A DNA stretch of 47,169 nucleotides from Gammaproteobacteria bacterium (GTDB taxonomy: Bacteria > Pseudomonadota > Gammaproteobacteria > Arenicellales > Poriferihabitantaceae), in the NCBI GenBank assembly GCA_011088265.1, contig JAALKB010000004.1, positions 20,702-67,870 of the forward strand. Reading direction: 5' to 3'. The notes under the pieces were generated by a model, which saw nothing but the letters and a program-made list of their open reading frames with translations, searched no databases and had not been told where the DNA came from. This document shows positions 4,497 to 41,807 of this stretch, in pieces. Made by a program: the position numbers and the translations under genes. How positions within the stretch are numbered: the first letter of the stretch is position 1; every line of letters begins with the position of its first letter.

Positions 4497-5294
4497 GTGA
4501 TGAAGGCAGTAAAGAAGCATACAGATAATCGTTGGCTATTATTGTCGATCGAGCGTTGGTTAACTGCTCCGATTGAACAGGAAGATGGGACAACGATTCC
4601 CCGCACACGCGGCGTGCCGCAGGGTGGGGTGATTAGTCCGGTTCTGTCTAATTTATTCATGCACTATGCATTTGATAAATGGATGGAAAGAACGTTTCCG
4701 AGTGAGCCATTTTGTCGCTACGCTGACGATGGGCTTGTGCACTGTGTGAGTGAGCAAGCAGCCAAAGTGGTGCTAGAGACTTTATCGGCACGGTTGGAAG
4801 CATGTGGACTATCAGCTCATCCGGATAAGACGAAGATTGAGTATTGTAAGGACGATGATAGGCGAGGAGGCTATGCGGTGACGAGCTTTGATTTTTTGGG
4901 CTATACCTTTAGGCCAAGACGGTCAAAGAGTCGTTATGGTAAGTTCTTTATCAATTTCAGTCCAGCGATTAGCGCCCAGGCGATCAAGGTGATCAGACAA
5001 ACAGTGAGGCGTTGGCGACTGCATTTGCGGAGCGACAAATCATTGCTTGATCCATCGCGTATGTTCCGGGCGGAGATTCGAGGCTGGATTCACTATTATG
5101 GTCGATTCTACAAGTCTGCATTGTATCCGACGTTACGTCATATCAATGGTAAGCTGATCTTATGGGCGACGAGGAAATATAAGAGGTTGCAACGCCATAG
5201 AAGACGAACGGAGTATAGATTGGGGAGGATTGCGAAGCGCAGTCCTCATCTATTTCCACCTTGGCAACTGGGTGTGAAGCCGACGGTTGAATGA
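4497..5294 (+). pseudogene. ltrA: Group II intron reverse transcriptase/maturase, N-terminally deleted
   Basis: The remaining 264 residues start inside the reverse transcriptase. They include the GVPQGGVISPVLSN motif (residues 39-52), the catalytic YADD (residues 75-78), the downstream FDFLGYTFRPRRSK block, and a complete maturase X domain ending at the usual GVKPTVE-type C-terminus. Full-length relatives have roughly 420 residues, so about 150-160 N-terminal residues, including the first catalytic Asp region, are missing. The first residues (MMKAVKKHTD) match an internal segment of intact proteins. The GTG/ATG at 4497-4502 is therefore probably not a native start but the scar of a deletion. 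No endonuclease domain is present. Confidence 0.9.
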
Positions 5295-7792: not shown

Positions 7793-9706
7793 ATGGTTAA
7801 CCACCCCCTTGATTCATTAAAGCCTGAAGAAATCACCCTGGCAGCCGAAATAGTTAAACGGGATATGGATTTGGGTGCGAGTTTCTTTTTTGAACAAATT
7901 AGGTTAAACGAACCAGATAAAAAAGTTGTTCGCAGTTTTTTGCTGGAAGATGCCATCGAGCGTGAAGCCTTTGTGGTTGTGTGGAATCGGAATTCGGGCG
8001 AATTGTTTGAGACCGTTATCTCCATTACTCAAGAAAAAGTTAAGTCTTCCACTCATATCCCCGGAGTACAGGCTGGCTACCTACCTGAAGAAAGTGAGCA
8101 GATAGCAGGAATTGTTAAGGCTCATCCTGATTTCGTCCAAGGGCTTAAAAAAAGGGGGATCGATAATCCTGACCAGGTCTACGTAGAGGGATTAGCCGTG
8201 GCCAATTTTGCACGCGCCGAAGAGCGCCATCTTCGGTTATCCCGGGCGCACTGCTTTTATATCGAAAACCCTTCGGACAATACCCACGCACGTCCAATTG
8301 AAGGTTTGGTTCCGATTATTGATTTAAATAAGATGGAAGTATTGCGTATCGAAGATAGTGGCATTGTTCCAATTCCACCAAACCGTGGAATGTACCAAAA
8401 AGGCGAGATTGGGGTCGAACGTCCTGCTCTTGCGGAACTGGACATTATTCAGCAATCTGGCCCAGATTTTGTTGTTGATGGACATGAAGTTAGTTGGCAA
8501 GGATGGAAATTCCGATTGGGGTTTACTCCCCGGGAAGGGCTGGTTTTGCATACCCTTTCTTTTAATGATGGTGAGGCGGAGCGTTCGGTGATCTACCGGG
8601 CTTCGCTCAGTGAATTAGTAGTGCCTTATGGCGAAACATCCGGTGACCATTTTTCCAATCACTCCTTTGATTTGGGGGACGGTATTTTCGGTCGATCTGT
8701 GAATTCCCTGACTTTGGGTTGCGATTGTTTGGGTGAAATCAGATATTTTGATGTGGTCCTAAGTGATGGTTATGGCAATCCTGTAATTAAACCAAATGCC
8801 ATTTGCATGCATGAAGAAGACTATGGGATTCTCTGGAAACACACAAATACCTTGACCGATGAGACGGAAGTACGCCGGTCTCGCAGGCTCGTTATTTCTT
8901 CTTTTTTTACCGTGGGAAATTATGACTATGGCATTTTCTGGTATTTATATCTTGACGGTAATATCGAATTTGAAGCCAAGTTGACAGGAATACTTTATTC
9001 GAGGGCATTGGACTCTGATGAAATCGCGTCCGGTAAGGACCCGCAATATGGACGCATTGTTTCGCCCAACCTAGTGGGAATGATTCATGAGCACTATTTT
9101 AATGTCCGGCTCGACATGAGTGTGGATGGAGATCGAAACTCAGTGGTTGAGGTGGAGGTTAATCGGATACAAACCGGTTCCGATAATCCACATGGTAATG
9201 CCCATGGTGTCACTGAAACAATGTTGGAGTCAGAAAAAGATGCTGGACGGGATACTAAACCTGAGAATGCAAGATATTGGAAAATAGTTAATCAAGGCAA
9301 GCAGAATGAGCTTGGTTGGCATCCTGGATATAAGCTTATGCCTGGGCCCACGATTAAGCCCATGCATCAGCCCGATTCACCCTTTATGAGAAGGGCGGGA
9401 TTCCTTGCCCATGATCTTTGGGTGACTGCATTCGATGCAACACAGTTAATGGCGCCTGGTCACTACGTGAATCAGAATGAACTTGGTCCAGGTATCCCGG
9501 AGTGGGTTAGGGAGGATAGGCCACTGGTGGATGAAGATGTGGTTTTGTGGCACACCATGGGGATAATGCATCTTCCAAGGCCTGAAGACTTTCCGGTAAT
9601 GCCCGTTGAATATGTGGGTTTTATGCTGAAGCCGGTTGGCTTTTTCAGGCGCAACCCAGCACTGGATTTAGCACCATCAAAAAAGTGCAGGATTACGTCA
9701 GGCTAA
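7793..9706 (+). CDS. Copper-containing primary-amine oxidase
   Basis: This 637-residue protein matches the bacterial copper amine oxidase family over its full length. Tyr377 in GNYDYG is the precursor of the self-made topaquinone cofactor. Asp293 in SFDLGD is the expected catalytic base. His432 and His434 (IHEH) with His593 (GIMHLPR) are the copper ligands. The enzyme oxidises a primary amine to aldehyde, ammonia and H2O2. No signal peptide is seen, unlike periplasmic E. coli TynA, so it resembles the cytoplasmic Arthrobacter-type phenylethylamine/histamine oxidases. Substrate identity (aromatic or aliphatic amine) is not resolved. No aldehyde dehydrogenase gene is adjacent. Confidence 0.95.
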   Translation: MVNHPLDSLKPEEITLAAEIVKRDMDLGASFFFEQIRLNEPDKKVVRSFLLEDAIEREAFVVVWNRNSGELFETVISITQEKVKSSTHIPGVQAGYLPEESEQIAGIVKAHPDFVQGLKKRGIDNPDQVYVEGLAVANFARAEERHLRLSRAHCFYIENPSDNTHARPIEGLVPIIDLNKMEVLRIEDSGIVPIPPNRGMYQKGEIGVERPALAELDIIQQSGPDFVVDGHEVSWQGWKFRLGFTPREGLVLHTLSFNDGEAERSVIYRASLSELVVPYGETSGDHFSNHSFDLGDGIFGRSVNSLTLGCDCLGEIRYFDVVLSDGYGNPVIKPNAICMHEEDYGILWKHTNTLTDETEVRRSRRLVISSFFTVGNYDYGIFWYLYLDGNIEFEAKLTGILYSRALDSDEIASGKDPQYGRIVSPNLVGMIHEHYFNVRLDMSVDGDRNSVVEVEVNRIQTGSDNPHGNAHGVTETMLESEKDAGRDTKPENARYWKIVNQGKQNELGWHPGYKLMPGPTIKPMHQPDSPFMRRAGFLAHDLWVTAFDATQLMAPGHYVNQNELGPGIPEWVREDRPLVDEDVVLWHTMGIMHLPRPEDFPVMPVEYVGFMLKPVGFFRRNPALDLAPSKKCRITSG

Positions 9707-9725
9707 AAAGGAAGGCTAAAAAGGA
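9701..9725. repeat. 13-bp tandem duplication across the amine oxidase stop codon
   Basis: GGCTAAAAAGGA occurs at 9701-9712 and again at 9714-9725. The first copy contains the TAA stop of the oxidase gene. Confidence 0.9.
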
Positions 9726-9790
9726 GATGGCAAGCAGAGGTCCCCAAAAGGGGGAGCCATGTTTAAGGGTTCCGGCGGCTAATTCAGTGA

Positions 9791-10342: not shown

Positions 10343-10990
10343 TGTGATTTCCCTGTATTAAGTTAGGTGGCCAAAACCATTTAATTTGGTTCTCGAAAGC
10401 CTGTTTTCGGTGACTGACTCTGTTGCCTATTAGCTGATCTGGTCAAACAGTGAATTGCGATGTTGTAGTGACATCGTTGATTTCATTGCCTTGGGCCACA
10501 CGGAAAAATATCTCGCTACCGGTGTTGGCCAGGGATGAAAGAGAGTCTCCTTGACTCAACTGTCTCACAGTACCTATAGAAGTTTTCCACTGTGAGTATA
10601 GTAAATCACTGTTTGCTTACAGGCTTGTTAAACCAGAAAATCATGCGGCGGAGGAAAAATCCGATAAGGTCTACGACAGAAACCGAAGCGAGGGCAAGTA
10701 TAGGTTTAAATCGAATAAAAAGGTACTGTTTTTAGAGTGTTGAAGGGGCGTTATTTGAAATAAACTCATCCTATGCCGTCTGATTCATGGTTAAGATCGG
10801 TGGGTTTTGGAAAATCCACAATTCGGCTTATTTTCTGTGCTGGTTAAGATCTCCTGGGTCTCGTTAGGACCCATGGGCCAGGAGGTGCACTGAATAGGGG
10901 CTGATGCGCTTGGTCCAGAACGGGAATGGGGCTTATTTGGGGTTCACCATTAACATTGAATTTGGCGCAGAATTATGAAGAAAGAAGAGA
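10343..10990. other. Long divergent intergenic region between the RRM and cysZ genes
   Basis: Nearly 650 bp with no supported ORF or tRNA. It contains an 8-bp inverted repeat (CTCACAGT at 10564-10571, ACTGTGAG at 10589-10596) that could be an operator or promoter element of the RRM gene. A second palindrome (CTCCTGG at 10851-10857, CCAGGAG at 10878-10884, enclosing GGGTC/GACCC) lies about 110 bp before cysZ. Confidence 0.5.
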
Positions 10991-14252: not shown

Positions 14253-15302
14253 ATGAAAATACAGCAGCTGGAAATAGTGGATAGTAAGGTCAACGTGCAC
14301 TGGAGGGATGGGACTATGACGTCATATCCGTCATTTTGGTTGCGCGACCATGCAAAAGATCCGCTGAGTTTCGACTCGAAAAGCCAACAAAGGGAGTTAT
14401 TCACAGCGAAAGTCAATCCGGAGATTGTGCCATTAGGAGCTGATATTTCCACGGACGGCGAGTCAGTCCTGATTCATTGGCCGGGCCTGCCGGATCCGGT
14501 TCATTATTCCGGCAAATTTTTGCGAGAATTTATACAGCCCAGGAATCAGTTAGATGTCTGGAATAAAGTAATCTGGGACGCAAACTCCATTACTGAGGAC
14601 TCGTATTTGATTGAATGGAGTCAGTTTTTGCAGGATGACGGCCTTGCCAGGCTAATGGCCCGGATAACGGAAAACGGTTTTGCATTAATGCGCGGTTGCC
14701 CAACCAACTTTGACACGGTTCAACAAATTGCGAGTCAAATCGGTTATGTCAGGCATACTATTTTTGGTGGTTCTTCAAGTGGAGGAGGGGGCGCAACCAG
14801 CGCTAGCAAAATCCTGGTTATTGGAGATAGCATTGGTGCCGGTTATGGTCTTGCGGTGCCCTACCCAGTTCGCATTCAGCAGTCCACTGGAGCCACACTG
14901 ATCAATGATAGTGCGGATGGAAGGGTCACTAGTGAAGGTGCTGCACGGATAGTGGGATTGATTACTCTGCACAAACCCACCCATCTTATTGTGCTGCTTG
15001 GCACAAATGATGCTCGGTTAGGAACGGTTTCAGGTGCCCTTAGAAATTTACAGTACATGATTAACTTTGCAAACTCTTCTGGCGTAACGGCGATTGTTGG
15101 AACACTGCCTCCCTATTTAACAACCGCGACACTGAACCAACGATCGGCGGAAATCAGTAGCGGTATTAGATCATTGAGTGGCGCGAGAATCGCTGAGGTC
15201 CGTAATGCGTTGGGGGATGGTAGCGTAACCCTTGCCGATGGCATCCACCCAAACGACGTCGGCCAACAGATCATAGCGGATACGTTCGTTGGGCAGCTAT
15301 GA
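14253..15302 (+). CDS. Chimeric ORF: butyrobetaine-dioxygenase N-terminus fused to SGNH hydrolase
   Basis: Residues 1 to about 173 match the N-terminal region of gamma-butyrobetaine dioxygenase-type proteins: the small DUF971-like domain (RDGTMTSYPSFWLRDHAKDP), then the start of the TauD-like core up to QIGYVRHTIFGG. The iron-binding His-x-Asp and the distal His should follow but are absent. The ORF continues instead through a Ser/Gly linker (SSSGGGGATSAS) into a complete SGNH/GDSL hydrolase, with GDSIGAGYG (block I), GTNDA (block III) and DGIHPN (block V, catalytic Asp-His). The linker resembles the low-complexity region after a lipoprotein Cys, so the hydrolase probably lost its export signal. 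The oxygenase half should be dead. The esterase half may fold but would be cytoplasmic. Confidence 0.88.
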   Translation: MKIQQLEIVDSKVNVHWRDGTMTSYPSFWLRDHAKDPLSFDSKSQQRELFTAKVNPEIVPLGADISTDGESVLIHWPGLPDPVHYSGKFLREFIQPRNQLDVWNKVIWDANSITEDSYLIEWSQFLQDDGLARLMARITENGFALMRGCPTNFDTVQQIASQIGYVRHTIFGGSSSGGGGATSASKILVIGDSIGAGYGLAVPYPVRIQQSTGATLINDSADGRVTSEGAARIVGLITLHKPTHLIVLLGTNDARLGTVSGALRNLQYMINFANSSGVTAIVGTLPPYLTTATLNQRSAEISSGIRSLSGARIAEVRNALGDGSVTLADGIHPNDVGQQIIADTFVGQL

Positions 15303-15543: not shown

Positions 15544-16029
15544 CTAGAACACTCCAGATTCCAATCCAGCGGCCATCAATGTGCCAAGGTCCCTACATTG
15601 GTCCACGAAATCTGGTTTGAACTCTCCAGTCATGACCAATGGAGGCTGAACCTGTTTCCATTTTAATCCCGTTATTATTCGTTCCACGCTGGTCCTGGCA
15701 CCCAATCCATCTAATCCTCCTTTAATAAAAATCGCCACGGGTAGTCCTTCTGTTTTTTCCAGGCAGGGGTAGTAGATACGTTCAAAAAAATCTTTTATCT
15801 GGCCACTCATGTAACCAAAATTCTCTGTGGTTCCCAGTATCAGACCATGAGCCCACAATAGGTCTTCATGATCGGTTTCCAATGGCTCCCTGGCTTGGGT
15901 AATCACGCCATTGATATCCGGGTGCTGACAACCTTCAAGCACCGCGTTTTGCAGGAGTCGGGTGTTTCGAGAAGGACAGTTAGAGACAATTAGCAGGTTT
16001 GGCATTGGATGCTGAGGGTTGTTTTGCAC
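15544..16029 (-). CDS. Flavodoxin-like / NADPH-dependent FMN reductase family protein
   Basis: This 161-residue protein has the flavodoxin fold pattern: an early strand with a phosphate-binding loop (LLIVSNCPSRNTRLL) and the characteristic LGTTENFGYMSGQIKDFFER segment, which corresponds to the WrbA/flavodoxin FMN-binding loop. It is expected to bind FMN and transfer electrons from NAD(P)H or another donor in the cytoplasm. Met9 (MPNLLIVS) is the more likely native start, because the fold begins there; the first eight residues add nothing. Partner proteins are not identifiable. It is divergent from the malonyl-CoA synthetase gene. Confidence 0.8.
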   Translation of the reverse strand: MQNNPQHPMPNLLIVSNCPSRNTRLLQNAVLEGCQHPDINGVITQAREPLETDHEDLLWAHGLILGTTENFGYMSGQIKDFFERIYYPCLEKTEGLPVAIFIKGGLDGLGARTSVERIITGLKWKQVQPPLVMTGEFKPDFVDQCRDLGTLMAAGLESGVF

Positions 16030-16218: not shown

Positions 16219-17727
16219 ATGAGCAATCCATTATATGACGCGCTTTTTGGGAAATATGCCAGCGCTGAAACCATTTTTATCACTACTACGGATGGTCGCG
16301 ATATAACCCATCGCTCTTTTCTCTCTACGAGCGCACGATTTGCCAATGTTTTCGCCAATGCTGGGTTGAATAAAGGTGATCGTGTGGTCGTCCAGGTAGA
16401 GAAGTCCGTTGAAGCATTATGTATTTATGCTGCCTGCGTTCAGTCTGGTTTGGTTTTTCTTCCACTGAATACTGCGTATACCCAGCGGGAGGTCCGATAT
16501 TTCGCTGAGGATAGCGGAGCCGGTTTGATTATTTGTGATACTTGCCGACAGGAGGGTCTCCAGCCCATTGCCAGAGATATAAGCGCGTTGTTGATGACTC
16601 TGAATGCGGACGGTTCCGGGTCGCTTGCTGATCTGTCCTTAGCCCAGGAAAGCGAATTTAACACCGTGGAAGCCCATGGTGAGGACCTTGCTGCATTTCT
16701 CTACACTTCAGGAACTACCGGTCGATCCAAAGGAGCCATGCTGTCGCAAAACAATTTGTTATCCAATGCAAGAACCCTGACAGAATATTGGGAGTTTACG
16801 AGTAAGGATGTGTTGTTACATGCGCTACCAATTTTCCATACACATGGTTTATTTGTTGCCACTAATATTGTCCTTATATCGGGTGCTTCAATGATTATGA
16901 TGCCGAAATTCGATGTTAAAGCCATGCTTAAAAAGCTGCCTGATGCCACCTGCTTGATGGGTGTGCCCACGTTTTATACCCGATTATTGGCTGAGACTGA
17001 CTTTGATAAGGACCTCACCAGGGAAATGAGACTGTTTATCTCCGGCAGCGCACCACTTTTGGCAGAAACCCATTTTCAGTTTGAGGAGCGCACAGGGCAC
17101 CGTATTCTGGAACGTTATGGAATGACGGAAACCAATATGAACACGTCAAACCCCTATCGGGGAGAACGTCGGGCTGGAACGGTTGGTTTTCCTTTACCTG
17201 GAGTGGAGTTAAAAATTGTATCTCCGGAAAGTGGAATAGAAGTTCAAAGAGGAGAAACCGGGATGATCGAAGTGAAAGGACCAAATATTTTTAAGGGTTA
17301 TTGGAATATGCCGGAGAAAACCAAAGCGGAGCTCCGGGAGGACGGTTTTTTCATTACCGGGGATTTGGGGAAAATTGATGAGGATGGTTATGTACATATC
17401 ATTGGTAGAGATAAAGATCTTATTATCTCTGGGGGCTTCAATATCTATCCAAAGGAAATTGAATCAATCCTCGATAAACAGGGCGGAGTGTTGGAAAGTG
17501 CTGTGATTGGTGTTCCTCATGCTGATTTTGGTGAAACACCCGTGGCGATTTTGGTCCGACAGCCTGATCAGGAACCAGATCCTGATACTATTTTGAAACA
17601 TATCGCTAGGGAACTAGCACGTTTCAAGCACCCAGGAAAACTAATCGTGGTTGACGAGCTACCCCGTAATACCATGGGTAAAGTGCAAAAAAATCAGCTA
17701 CGAGAACAATACAAAGATCTGTTTTGA
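16219..17727 (+). CDS. matB: Malonyl-CoA synthetase
   Basis: This 502-residue acyl-adenylate-forming ligase has the AMP-binding P-loop-like motif YTSGTTGRSKGAM, a HALPIFHTHGLF block, the ERYGMTETNMNTSNPY motif and the GFPLPGVELKI block. The last two are close to the MatB malonyl-CoA synthetase signature rather than long-chain acyl-CoA ligases. The C-terminal catalytic Lys is visible in NTMGKVQKNQL. It converts malonate, ATP and CoA into malonyl-CoA in the cytoplasm. No malonate decarboxylase or transporter is adjacent, although an MFS carrier of the oxalate/formate antiporter type lies about 2 kb downstream. Confidence 0.92.
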   Translation: MSNPLYDALFGKYASAETIFITTTDGRDITHRSFLSTSARFANVFANAGLNKGDRVVVQVEKSVEALCIYAACVQSGLVFLPLNTAYTQREVRYFAEDSGAGLIICDTCRQEGLQPIARDISALLMTLNADGSGSLADLSLAQESEFNTVEAHGEDLAAFLYTSGTTGRSKGAMLSQNNLLSNARTLTEYWEFTSKDVLLHALPIFHTHGLFVATNIVLISGASMIMMPKFDVKAMLKKLPDATCLMGVPTFYTRLLAETDFDKDLTREMRLFISGSAPLLAETHFQFEERTGHRILERYGMTETNMNTSNPYRGERRAGTVGFPLPGVELKIVSPESGIEVQRGETGMIEVKGPNIFKGYWNMPEKTKAELREDGFFITGDLGKIDEDGYVHIIGRDKDLIISGGFNIYPKEIESILDKQGGVLESAVIGVPHADFGETPVAILVRQPDQEPDPDTILKHIARELARFKHPGKLIVVDELPRNTMGKVQKNQLREQYKDLF

Positions 17728-20977: not shown

Positions 20978-24176
<3,199 letters not shown>

Positions 24177-37556: not shown

Positions 37557-38984
37557 GTGATGAATTCCATTTCAGTCATGCCGCCGCAAATGGCGAAAAA
37601 AGACATTATCTCAGGGAATAAGCGTGTTGCCTTATCTACCCTGGGATGTAAAGTGAATAGTTTCGAAACGGAGTTAATTGCCCAAAAGCTTTCGGGTCGT
37701 CACTATTCCAGAGTCAAATCTACGGAAGAAGCAGATTTATACATCATCAATACCTGCACAGTGACATCGGAAGCTGACCGTCAGGCAAGGCAATTGGTGA
37801 GAAAGGCCATACGGTCAAATCCCCAGGCTTGGGTGGTGGTTACCGGATGCTACGCCGAAATTGATCCCAACGCCTGCTCCATGATTCCAGGTGTGGATCT
37901 GGTTGTGGGAAACAGCCAAAAGCTGGATATTCCTTCACTGCTCGACACCCTTTATCAGGGCGAATTGCCACCCATTTTAGGGAAAAATATCGATAAGGAA
38001 ATAAGCCTTCCTGATGAGTTGCTGAGTGGTTATGAGGGTCGGACCCGGGCTTTCGTCCAGATTCAACAAGGTTGTGATCAGGGTTGCACGTTTTGCGTGA
38101 TCCATAAAGCCCGAGGACCAAACCGCTCTTTTCCCTTATCCATGATTCGTCGCCAGATCGAGCGACTGGTCCTCAATGGATATAAGGAAATTGTGATCTG
38201 CGGTGTCGATATTGGGTCTTATGGTTCCGATTTTGAGGACAGTTCCCAGAATCTGACGATGTTGCTGAAAGAAGTAGTTAAAGTAGAGGGGGATTACCGT
38301 TTACGATTAAGTTCCATTGACCCCGCACATATTACGGATGAACTAATTGATTGTATTGCCTCCGAACCGGCTATTTGTCCCCAGCTCCACCTATCCATGC
38401 AAAGTGGAAGTACGTTGATTTTAAAAAGGATGAAAAGAAGGGCTACCAGAGACGTGTTATATGAGCGTGTTTCCGCTTTAAAAAAAGCGGTTCCAAATTT
38501 GGTGTTAAGCGCTGATATTCTGGTCGGATTTCCCACTGAATCAGACGAGCATTTCCAGCAAACCCTCGAAGCCATGAATGACCTGGACATTGCTTATCCT
38601 CATGTTTTTGCTTATTCCCCAAGACCCGGCACACCCGCCGCAAGAATTCCATCCTAGGTGCCCAAGGCAATCAGAAAAGAACGGGCGGTAAAGGCAAGGG
38701 AGATGGGTAAGCAGGTATGGCGCCGGGTTGCTATGGCACAAATTGGAGACCACTCGCGAATTCTGTTGGAATCCAATGACAATAGAACCAATGACAACAG
38801 GGCCAATAACGGCGTCATATCTGGTAGAGCAAGCAACTATTTTCCAATCCGGGTTGAACCTGTTAAAAACGCTGATTTTCACGCTGGTGATACTATCGTG
38901 GAAGATGGTGGCTTATCAGGATGGCTTAATGTCGAGATTACAGCAGTTTCAGCGGATGCTTTAATTGCCCGGAGACTGTCCTAG
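37557..38984 (+). pseudogene. mtaB: tRNA t6A37 methylthiotransferase MtaB, with in-frame TAG
   Basis: The frame encodes an N-terminal UPF0004 domain (TLGCKVNSFETE, INTCTVT, VTGCYAE supply three cluster-binding Cys). A radical-SAM domain follows with CDQGCTFC (CxxxCxxC), and a C-terminal TRAM-like domain comes after. TLGCKVN and the order of domains identify MtaB, which makes ms2t6A37 in tRNA, rather than MiaB or RimO. After residue 366 (RIPS) a TAG at 38655-38657 interrupts the frame, which continues without shift as VPKAIRKERAVKAREMG. The family has Gln at this place (RIPSQVP), so CAG to TAG is the simplest change. The truncated product would lose the rest of the radical-SAM barrel edge and the tRNA-binding TRAM domain. 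A GTG restart at 38658 is unlikely to rescue it. Confidence 0.9.
38773..38811. repeat. 15-bp in-frame tandem duplication in mtaB
   Basis: CCAATGACAATAGAA, CCAATGACAACAGGG and a partial third copy encode the repeated NDNR pentapeptides in the C-terminal part of MtaB. MtaB relatives do not normally carry this insert. Confidence 0.85.
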
Positions 38985-39715: not shown

Positions 39716-40882
39716 ATGCTAGACGACTCCCCCATCAATTTGCTGTCCATGGATAGAAAGACCATGGAGTCCTTTTTTTTAGACATGGGGGAGAAGCGAT
39801 TTCGCGCTAAACAGTTGTTACAGTGGATTTATCAACGTAATGTCGTCAATGTCGATGAGATGACGGATCTGAGTAAATCCCTGAGGAAAAAGCTCGGCCT
39901 TGAAGCGTGTTTTACCATGCCGGAAATTGTTAGCCAGCAGTTATCTAAAGATGGAACCTGCAAGTGGTTGCTGAAGCTTCGAGATGGGAATTGCATCGAA
40001 ACTGTCTATATCCCCGAAAAAGATCGTGGAACCCTTTGCGTATCTTCTCAGGTGGGGTGTGGTTTGAATTGCACTTTTTGTGCAACTGCCCGCCAGGGCT
40101 ATAATCGTAATCTGGATGTTGACGAGATTATTTCTCAGGTATGGATCGCCAATAATGCATTGGAGTCGATTGGCGTTGGTGGCTATTTTCAGGACGATGA
40201 CAGTACCAATCAGAGTTCCAACAGTACTTTTACGGTAGATCAAAGACGCCCGGTCACAAATGTAGTGATGATGGGAATGGGTGAGCCGTTACTTAATTTC
40301 GATAATGTTGTCGCGTCCATGAATTTGATGATGGACGATTTTTCATTCGGTTTATCCAAAAGACGCGTCACCTTGAGTACCGCTGGGGTGGTGCCGGCCA
40401 TAAGTCGTTTAGCAGAAACCTGTCCAGTCAGTCTGGCGGTTTCTTTGCATGCGCCCACCGATGATTTACGTAATAGGTTAGTTCCGATCAACAAAAAATA
40501 TCCCATTGAGCAGTTACTCGATGCTTGTCGGCAATACGTCGGAGAGAAGAATCGACAGCGTATTACCTTCGAATACGTTATGCTAAAAGGGGTGAATGAT
40601 TCTCCCGCTCAGGCATTACAATTGGCGAAGCTGCTGGTCGATATGCCTGCCAAGGTTAATCTGATTCCCTTCAATCCTTTTGACGGCGTTCAGTTTGCAC
40701 GATCGAATTCTAAAACCATAGATCGCTTTACGGAAACTCTTCTTGATCAAGGTGTTTTCACTATTAAACGTCGAACTAGAGGAGATGATATTGACGCTGC
40801 CTGTGGTCAGCTAGCTGGAAATTTTCATGACAGAACAAAACGTTCAATTCGTATGAGTCAGCAGCGGGTGAGTTTTTCGTGA
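39716..40882 (+). CDS. rlmN: 23S rRNA A2503 / tRNA A37 C2-methyltransferase RlmN
   Basis: This 388-residue radical-SAM enzyme has the cluster motif CGLNCTFC. The methyl-carrying Cys lies in AACGQL near the C-terminus, and the second conserved Cys in the N-terminal barrel. It methylates C2 of A2503 in 23S rRNA and A37 in some tRNAs. A short insert (about residues 145-180, [14 protein letters not shown]) is low-complexity and longer than usual. Its stop overlaps the GTG start of the next gene by 4 bp (GTGA), showing coupling. Confidence 0.96.
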
Positions 40883-41246
40883 ATCGGCGGATGATGACAT
40901 TGGTTGTTTTCGTTCTGGGGTTGTCAATGACCGGATGTGTAACCGTGCTCGAAAAACAGGTATCTTCAAATCAGGAGCGAGCCCAGATCCACGTCTTGTT
41001 GGCTCTTGATTATCTCCGGTACAACCAATTCGATGTCGCTCGTAGTGAACTTGATATGGCCTTCAATATTGATAACAGTCTCGATACGCTTTATCACGCT
41101 AAAGGATTATTGTTCGAACGTTCAGGTCATCCGCTGGAAGCGGCGGAGATGTTTAGGAAGTCCATTAAACTAAATCCTCTGAACTTTACGGCAATTAACG
41201 ATTACGCCGTTCATTTGTGCCAGCGGAATTCAGAACAGACTTCAGA

Positions 41247-41276
41247 GAAGATATCTGGAGAGAAGGTAGCTGGGGA
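41247..41276. repeat. 15-bp in-frame tandem duplication in pilW
   Basis: GAAGATATCTGGAGA and GAAGGTAGCTGGGGA (four mismatches) encode EKISG/EKVAG-type repeats, ending at the frameshifted A-run. Confidence 0.65.
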
Positions 41277-41345
41277 AAAAAAGCGGAGACTATTTTGACA
41301 GATCAAAATAAAAATGGAACTTTTGACGGTGCTTTGCAAATAGCT

Positions 41346-41375
41346 GAGTTTCAGGAAGATGGATTTCAAGAAGAT
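41346..41375. repeat. 15-bp in-frame tandem duplication in pilW
   Basis: GAGTTTCAGGAAGAT and GGATTTCAAGAAGAT encode EFQED and GFQED in tandem. Confidence 0.8.
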
Positions 41376-41807
41376 GAGTTGACTGCATTGGGCTTGCTTG
41401 AGACCATACAGGATCATCCAGACAACGACCAGTTGTTTCAAACTGATCTCGCTCTTGGTGTTTGTAATCAGAAATTAGGTCGGATGGATGTCGCAGTCAG
41501 CTTTTTCAGGAAGGTATTGGAAAAACACGCATACCTTCCCCAGGCACTATTACCTATGGCAGAGATTAGTTATGAAAATCGCCAGTTTCTTGGGGCCAGG
41601 GGGTTTATCGAACGCTATTTCTCTACTGGATCCGTTTCCTCACGATCGCTTTTTCTGGCTACAATGATCGAAATCGAACTGGATGATGAACACAGTTCAA
41701 AACGATATTACAGGGAGCTGACAAACAAATTTCCAGATACCCGGGAAGCGAAAAAGGCATCTTCGGTCCTGAATCTAATTTAACTGCACAACAAATTTGG
41801 AGTGTAA

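Follow-up and report, generated by a model that had tools for sequence, protein, structure and literature searches.

The 47,169-nucleotide stretch of DNA analyzed here (the window) comes from a gammaproteobacterial contig of 67,870 bases. Well inside this contig (C41:34954-36000) lies a single open reading frame of 349 codons (window 14253-15302, plus strand), with an ATG start and no interruption, that joins parts of two enzymes. Its first 173 residues resemble the GBBH dioxygenase/TmpA (2-trimethylaminoethylphosphonate hydroxylase) family (TIGR02409, NF049936, PF02668 with PF06155) and comprise the N-terminal domain plus the start of a TauD-type domain. Residues 10-90 match GBBH-like_N (PF06155; E 2.6e-5, 25.3 bits against a cut-off of 22.8), and residues 13-172 match the first 166 of the 366 positions of the gamma-butyrobetaine dioxygenase model TIGR02409 (E 8.9e-16). 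The oxygenase match extends to IFGG (residues 170-173, last base 14771), and these last oxygenase codons run directly into a Ser/Gly linker that belongs to the hydrolase. Residues 189-340 match Lipase_GDSL_2 (PF13472) over its full length (1-178 of 178; E 7.4e-13), with GDSIG, LGTND, and DGIHPND retained as the GDS(L/I), GxND, and DxxH blocks. The profile matches of both halves are far beyond chance. Matches in the PDB agree, with the oxygenase half retrieving TmpA (6npb, residues 21-180 of 383) and the hydrolase half TesA-type thioesterases. An AlphaFold2 model from a 12-sequence alignment was mostly confident for the hydrolase (block means mostly 85-96) and patchy for the oxygenase stub (31-87), with the joint called disordered (26-41). 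An earlier note on this DNA had described an in-frame chimera of butyrobetaine dioxygenase and SGNH hydrolase, which the profile matches and the single frame bear out.

Table 1. Features of the chimeric locus in the window and of the corresponding region in the sister genome G001 (contig L038)
Feature	Position	Strand	Basis
GBBH/TmpA-like Fe(II)/2-oxoglutarate oxygenase, N-terminal 173 residues	14253..14771	+	profile and PDB matches; 63% identity to intact G001 orthologue
Joint, TTT GGT GGT / TCT TCA AGT	14763..14780	+	alignment with L038 10471 and about 9750
SGNH/GDSL hydrolase body, stop codon included	14772..15302	+	profile matches; 84% identity to G001 lipoprotein hydrolase
NADPH-dependent FMN reductase-like gene, conserved downstream neighbor	15544..16029	-	PF03358; collinear with L038 8613-9082, 73% DNA identity
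Malonyl-CoA synthase-type acyl-CoA ligase, conserved neighbor	16219..17727	+	NF005702, E 1.5e-242; L038 3271-4780, 73.7% DNA identity
G001 oxygenase, complete, 362 aa	L038 9880-10968	-	TauD profile 13-267 of 267
G001 lipoprotein hydrolase, complete, 226 aa	L038 9198-9878	-	signal peptide-like N-terminus, lipobox

Intact counterparts of both halves adjoin in G001, the sole genome of the same genus in a search of 60 related genomes. G001 is a sponge-associated MAG (isolate MH-Pat-SR_metabat2_5), MH-PAT being a specimen of the sponge Mycale hentscheli (PMC7157528). The matches lie on the minus strand of its contig C254 (hydrolase at 9201-9740, 84% identity; oxygenase at 10468-10971, 63% identity), which was read as L038 (public record WLWV01000116.1). 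The two genes are co-directional there, with the oxygenase TGA (9880) separated by one base from the hydrolase ATG (9878). Aligned with TmpA and human GBBH, the sister oxygenase matches along its full length, PHTDG (the HxD iron motif) and VMHGR (the distal His) included; in a profile search, it scores under the cut-off of each of the three equivalog models. In the sister hydrolase, the lipobox LLGC is followed by SSGGGSASGG. Gene order downstream of both parents is the same as in the window, which is collinear with the sister from 14.3 to 20.8 kb across the FMN reductase-like gene, the malonyl-CoA synthase-like ligase gene, and the next two genes (67-74% DNA identity). A reading of the parents as unrelated genes brought together is corrected by this arrangement, since they are immediate neighbors.

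Comparison with the sister defines what each parent has lost, and it upholds the claim in the earlier note that both losses were of essential parts. The HxD...H facial triad is absent from the window frame, where the family match is left at position 166 of 366 in TIGR02409; PHTDG and VMHGR of the sister lie beyond IFGG, as the note had anticipated in placing the break before the iron-binding residues. Given that the HTD and distal His fall within the missing piece, no oxygenase activity is expected of the window protein. Despite its likeness to the GBBH/TmpA family over 173 residues, a protein that lacks the iron site and all of the fold's second half cannot function as an active member of it. 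The hydrolase is complete from its Ser/Gly linker onward, also as previously described, and its catalytic blocks are those of TesA-like SGNH/GDSL hydrolases (PF13472; PRK10528), here of a lipoprotein subfamily that occurs in this order. A signal peptide and lipobox Cys precede that linker in the sister and the other relatives read; both are absent from the window frame, which in contrast to the subfamily carries the oxygenase stub in their place. As the export signal is missing, the predicted esterase would stay in the cytoplasm.

A DNA alignment of window and sister over both parents contains a single large gap of roughly 720 bp, with the flanks aligned in frame. In the window, alignment to the sister oxygenase runs through GGTGGT (14771; L038 10471) and resumes in the hydrolase within its Ser/Gly linker, immediately past the lipobox position (Cys codon at L038 9748-9750); this right edge is approximate because the linker differs in length between the two genomes. 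The missing piece is on no other contig of the window's genome, a fragmented but 97% complete assembly of 317 contigs. When the sister oxygenase was used as a query against that genome, the chimera was the only orthologue, and all other matches were paralogues of 25-38% identity. The search that the earlier note had proposed for a displaced C-terminal oxygenase half thus returned only distant paralogues, and the missing halves are gone. Translocation or duplication of the lost half was rejected on the same grounds.

Because the parents are immediate co-directional neighbors in the sister, a single loss of about 720 bp is enough to explain the whole arrangement. We therefore favor, with good though not full confidence, a single recent in-frame deletion that fused two adjacent genes and most likely left a young fusion pseudogene. 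The ancestor would have resembled the sister, with a complete butyrobetaine/TmpA-like oxygenase, one base, and a secreted lipoprotein SGNH hydrolase, and the deletion would have extended from just past the oxygenase IFGG codons to about the hydrolase lipobox. A few bases of homology were probably used, between GGTGGT of the oxygenase and the Gly codons that follow the Cys of the lipobox. Most hydrolase relatives have Gly-Gly-Gly(-Gly) after this Cys, and Ser often comes next; if the window ancestor encoded Cys-Gly-Gly-Ser-Ser-Ser, as it may have, about 6-7 bases would be common to that site and the oxygenase ...T GGT GGT. The earlier note had placed the joint in Gly codons, where it indeed lies, and had proposed recombination at microhomology, which the Gly runs of the relatives make plausible. 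RecA-independent deletion between short direct repeats has been reported in Escherichia coli (PMC5426353). The present case is similar in that sequence was lost between two short Gly-codon stretches of neighboring genes; it differs in that the ancestral repeat is not directly readable in the window and that the deletion happens to be in frame. The intact frame on both sides could also reflect selection, while the chance that a deletion is in frame is one in three.

The same gap could arise if the cells hold both intact genes and the joint was produced by a chimeric read or a misjoined gap, or represents a minor strain variant. Such an assembly or library artefact would suit the fragmented state of the assembly, and the same contig carries homopolymer frameshifts and early stops in conserved genes, as base errors give. 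However, the sequence shared at the joint is about 6-9 bases at most, too short on its own to mislead an assembler, the missing 720 bp are found on no other contig, and homopolymer slips do not explain at least two of the other defects, which are in-frame stops. We consider an artefact unlikely, and the favored deletion is presumed to exist in cells.

Irregular genes other than the chimera lie on the same contig. Six kilobases downstream, a kinase (APH)-M23 peptidase-class III aminotransferase gene (20978-24176, plus strand) is disrupted by an in-frame TGA (23673-23675) and by three frameshifts, each at or close to a homopolymer, whereas its sister counterpart is a single frame of about 1064 codons (L067 161-3355). 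The gene for the MtaB tRNA methylthiotransferase (37557-38657, plus strand) contains an in-frame TAG at profile position 340 of 416, beyond which the frame is open. The gene for the pilus biogenesis protein PilW is split over two frames (40879-41298 and 41217-41783, plus strand) near an A7 run at about 41276. Family searches turned up some interrupted copies in the window's genome and in the sister alike. True pseudogenization, base errors, or a mix of the two may account for the broken genes on the contig.

We also examined the distribution of both parts among relatives. A match with E < 1e-20 was present in 16 of 109 genomes of the order; outside this genus, such matches are confined to the hydrolase part and mostly fall in frames of about 180-245 codons, which suggests that the stand-alone hydrolase is the older state. 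Solitary hydrolases of this kind occur in 14 other genomes of the order, with 39-53% identity to the window hydrolase, and those read with their N-termini look like lipoproteins. Among 24 genomes of the family, a close oxygenase orthologue is confined to the window's genome and the sister. The same fusion occurs in no other of the 109 genomes, so the search for proteins sharing the junction, suggested in the earlier note, came back empty for the order. Peptide-pattern scans of genome and viral contigs found no relatives of the whole chimera, and a literature search for the same kind of fusion returned nothing specific.

These distributions bear on the direction of change. We infer that the two-gene state, represented by one sister genome, came first, on the strength of the active-site parts missing from the window and the solitary hydrolases in 14 genomes. 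The reverse, an ancestral fused gene into which G001 gained a middle piece, draws on the fact that only two genomes were compared and has no other support. The extra piece in G001 contains precisely the oxygenase half absent from the window, both parts of the iron site included, along with a signal peptide and lipobox, and each of these matches its family profile or its relatives. Family alignments in effect refute this reversal, to which we give next to no credence.

The age of the fusion was gauged from the oxygenase stub. Its amino-acid identity to the sister in this comparison is 64%, as against 57% and 63% over the corresponding half in two pairs of intact orthologues. Identities by codon position are 75/82/37% for the stub and 62/78/41% and 69/76/49% for the intact pairs, which are similar profiles, and relative-rate counts for the stub against four outgroup paralogues are balanced (8:7, 5:6, 10:8, and 9:6). 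None of these measures displays the fast evolution that old decay of the stub would entail. The stub evolves no faster than the same half of intact paralogues, and the deletion accordingly looks recent. Judged from these rates, either the deletion happened recently compared with the divergence of the two species, or constraint on the stub persists, and a recent deletion would be the simpler of the two.

A rival reading is a functional hybrid, in which the fusion is retained as a cytoplasmic SGNH esterase or thioesterase and the N-terminal oxygenase domain serves as a new module. The intact frame, the complete catalytic motifs, the high confidence with which the hydrolase domain is predicted, and the purifying-selection pattern of codon positions on both halves are all compatible with this reading. 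A recent deletion, however, would inherit that pattern from two intact genes. The stub also breaks off partway through the oxygenase fold, parts of it are low in confidence in the AlphaFold2 model, no relative among the 109 genomes carries the fusion, and the cytoplasm would be an unusual site for an enzyme whose relatives, where read, look like lipoproteins. We regard a functional hybrid as improbable. Similarly slight is the prospect that a secreted lipoprotein esterase was turned cytoplasmic by one in-frame deletion and that the newborn hybrid, with its oxygenase N-terminal domain, is expressed and selected. Under the favored pseudogene reading, the oxygenase would be dead for want of its iron ligands and the second half of its fold, and the hydrolase domain would have kept its catalytic motifs while losing its export signal. 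If translated, the product would be a cytoplasmic hybrid bearing an oxygenase stub prone to misfolding. The earlier note held that a hybrid protein could be made, and the frame permits it, but loss of function explains the frame better. Nothing supports a function for a possible cytoplasmic hybrid hydrolase, and the most likely event is an ordinary gene-wrecking deletion rather than the making of a purposeful new protein.

The two genomes provide a clean before-and-after pair in which one short deletion makes an intact-looking chimeric frame. Annotation would present such frames as a novel domain architecture even though they are probably dead. In other respects, this would be ordinary gene loss in a lineage that may be host-associated, the sister having come from a sponge. 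TauD-type oxygenases are numerous in the genus, with 25 matches in the window's genome and 15 in the sister versus 3 in a same-family genome of another genus (G006). On another contig of the window's genome (C128, read as L102), an AMP-binding match falls in an apparent frame of 28,737 aa. This might have meant a giant gene, but the length is untrustworthy because the stretch read has 4,000 N from base 16,000 on; the frame extends for at least about 4,450 codons before the N. The window also encodes a C-terminal piece of a group II intron reverse transcriptase/maturase (4497-5294, plus strand; profile positions 142-352 of 353).
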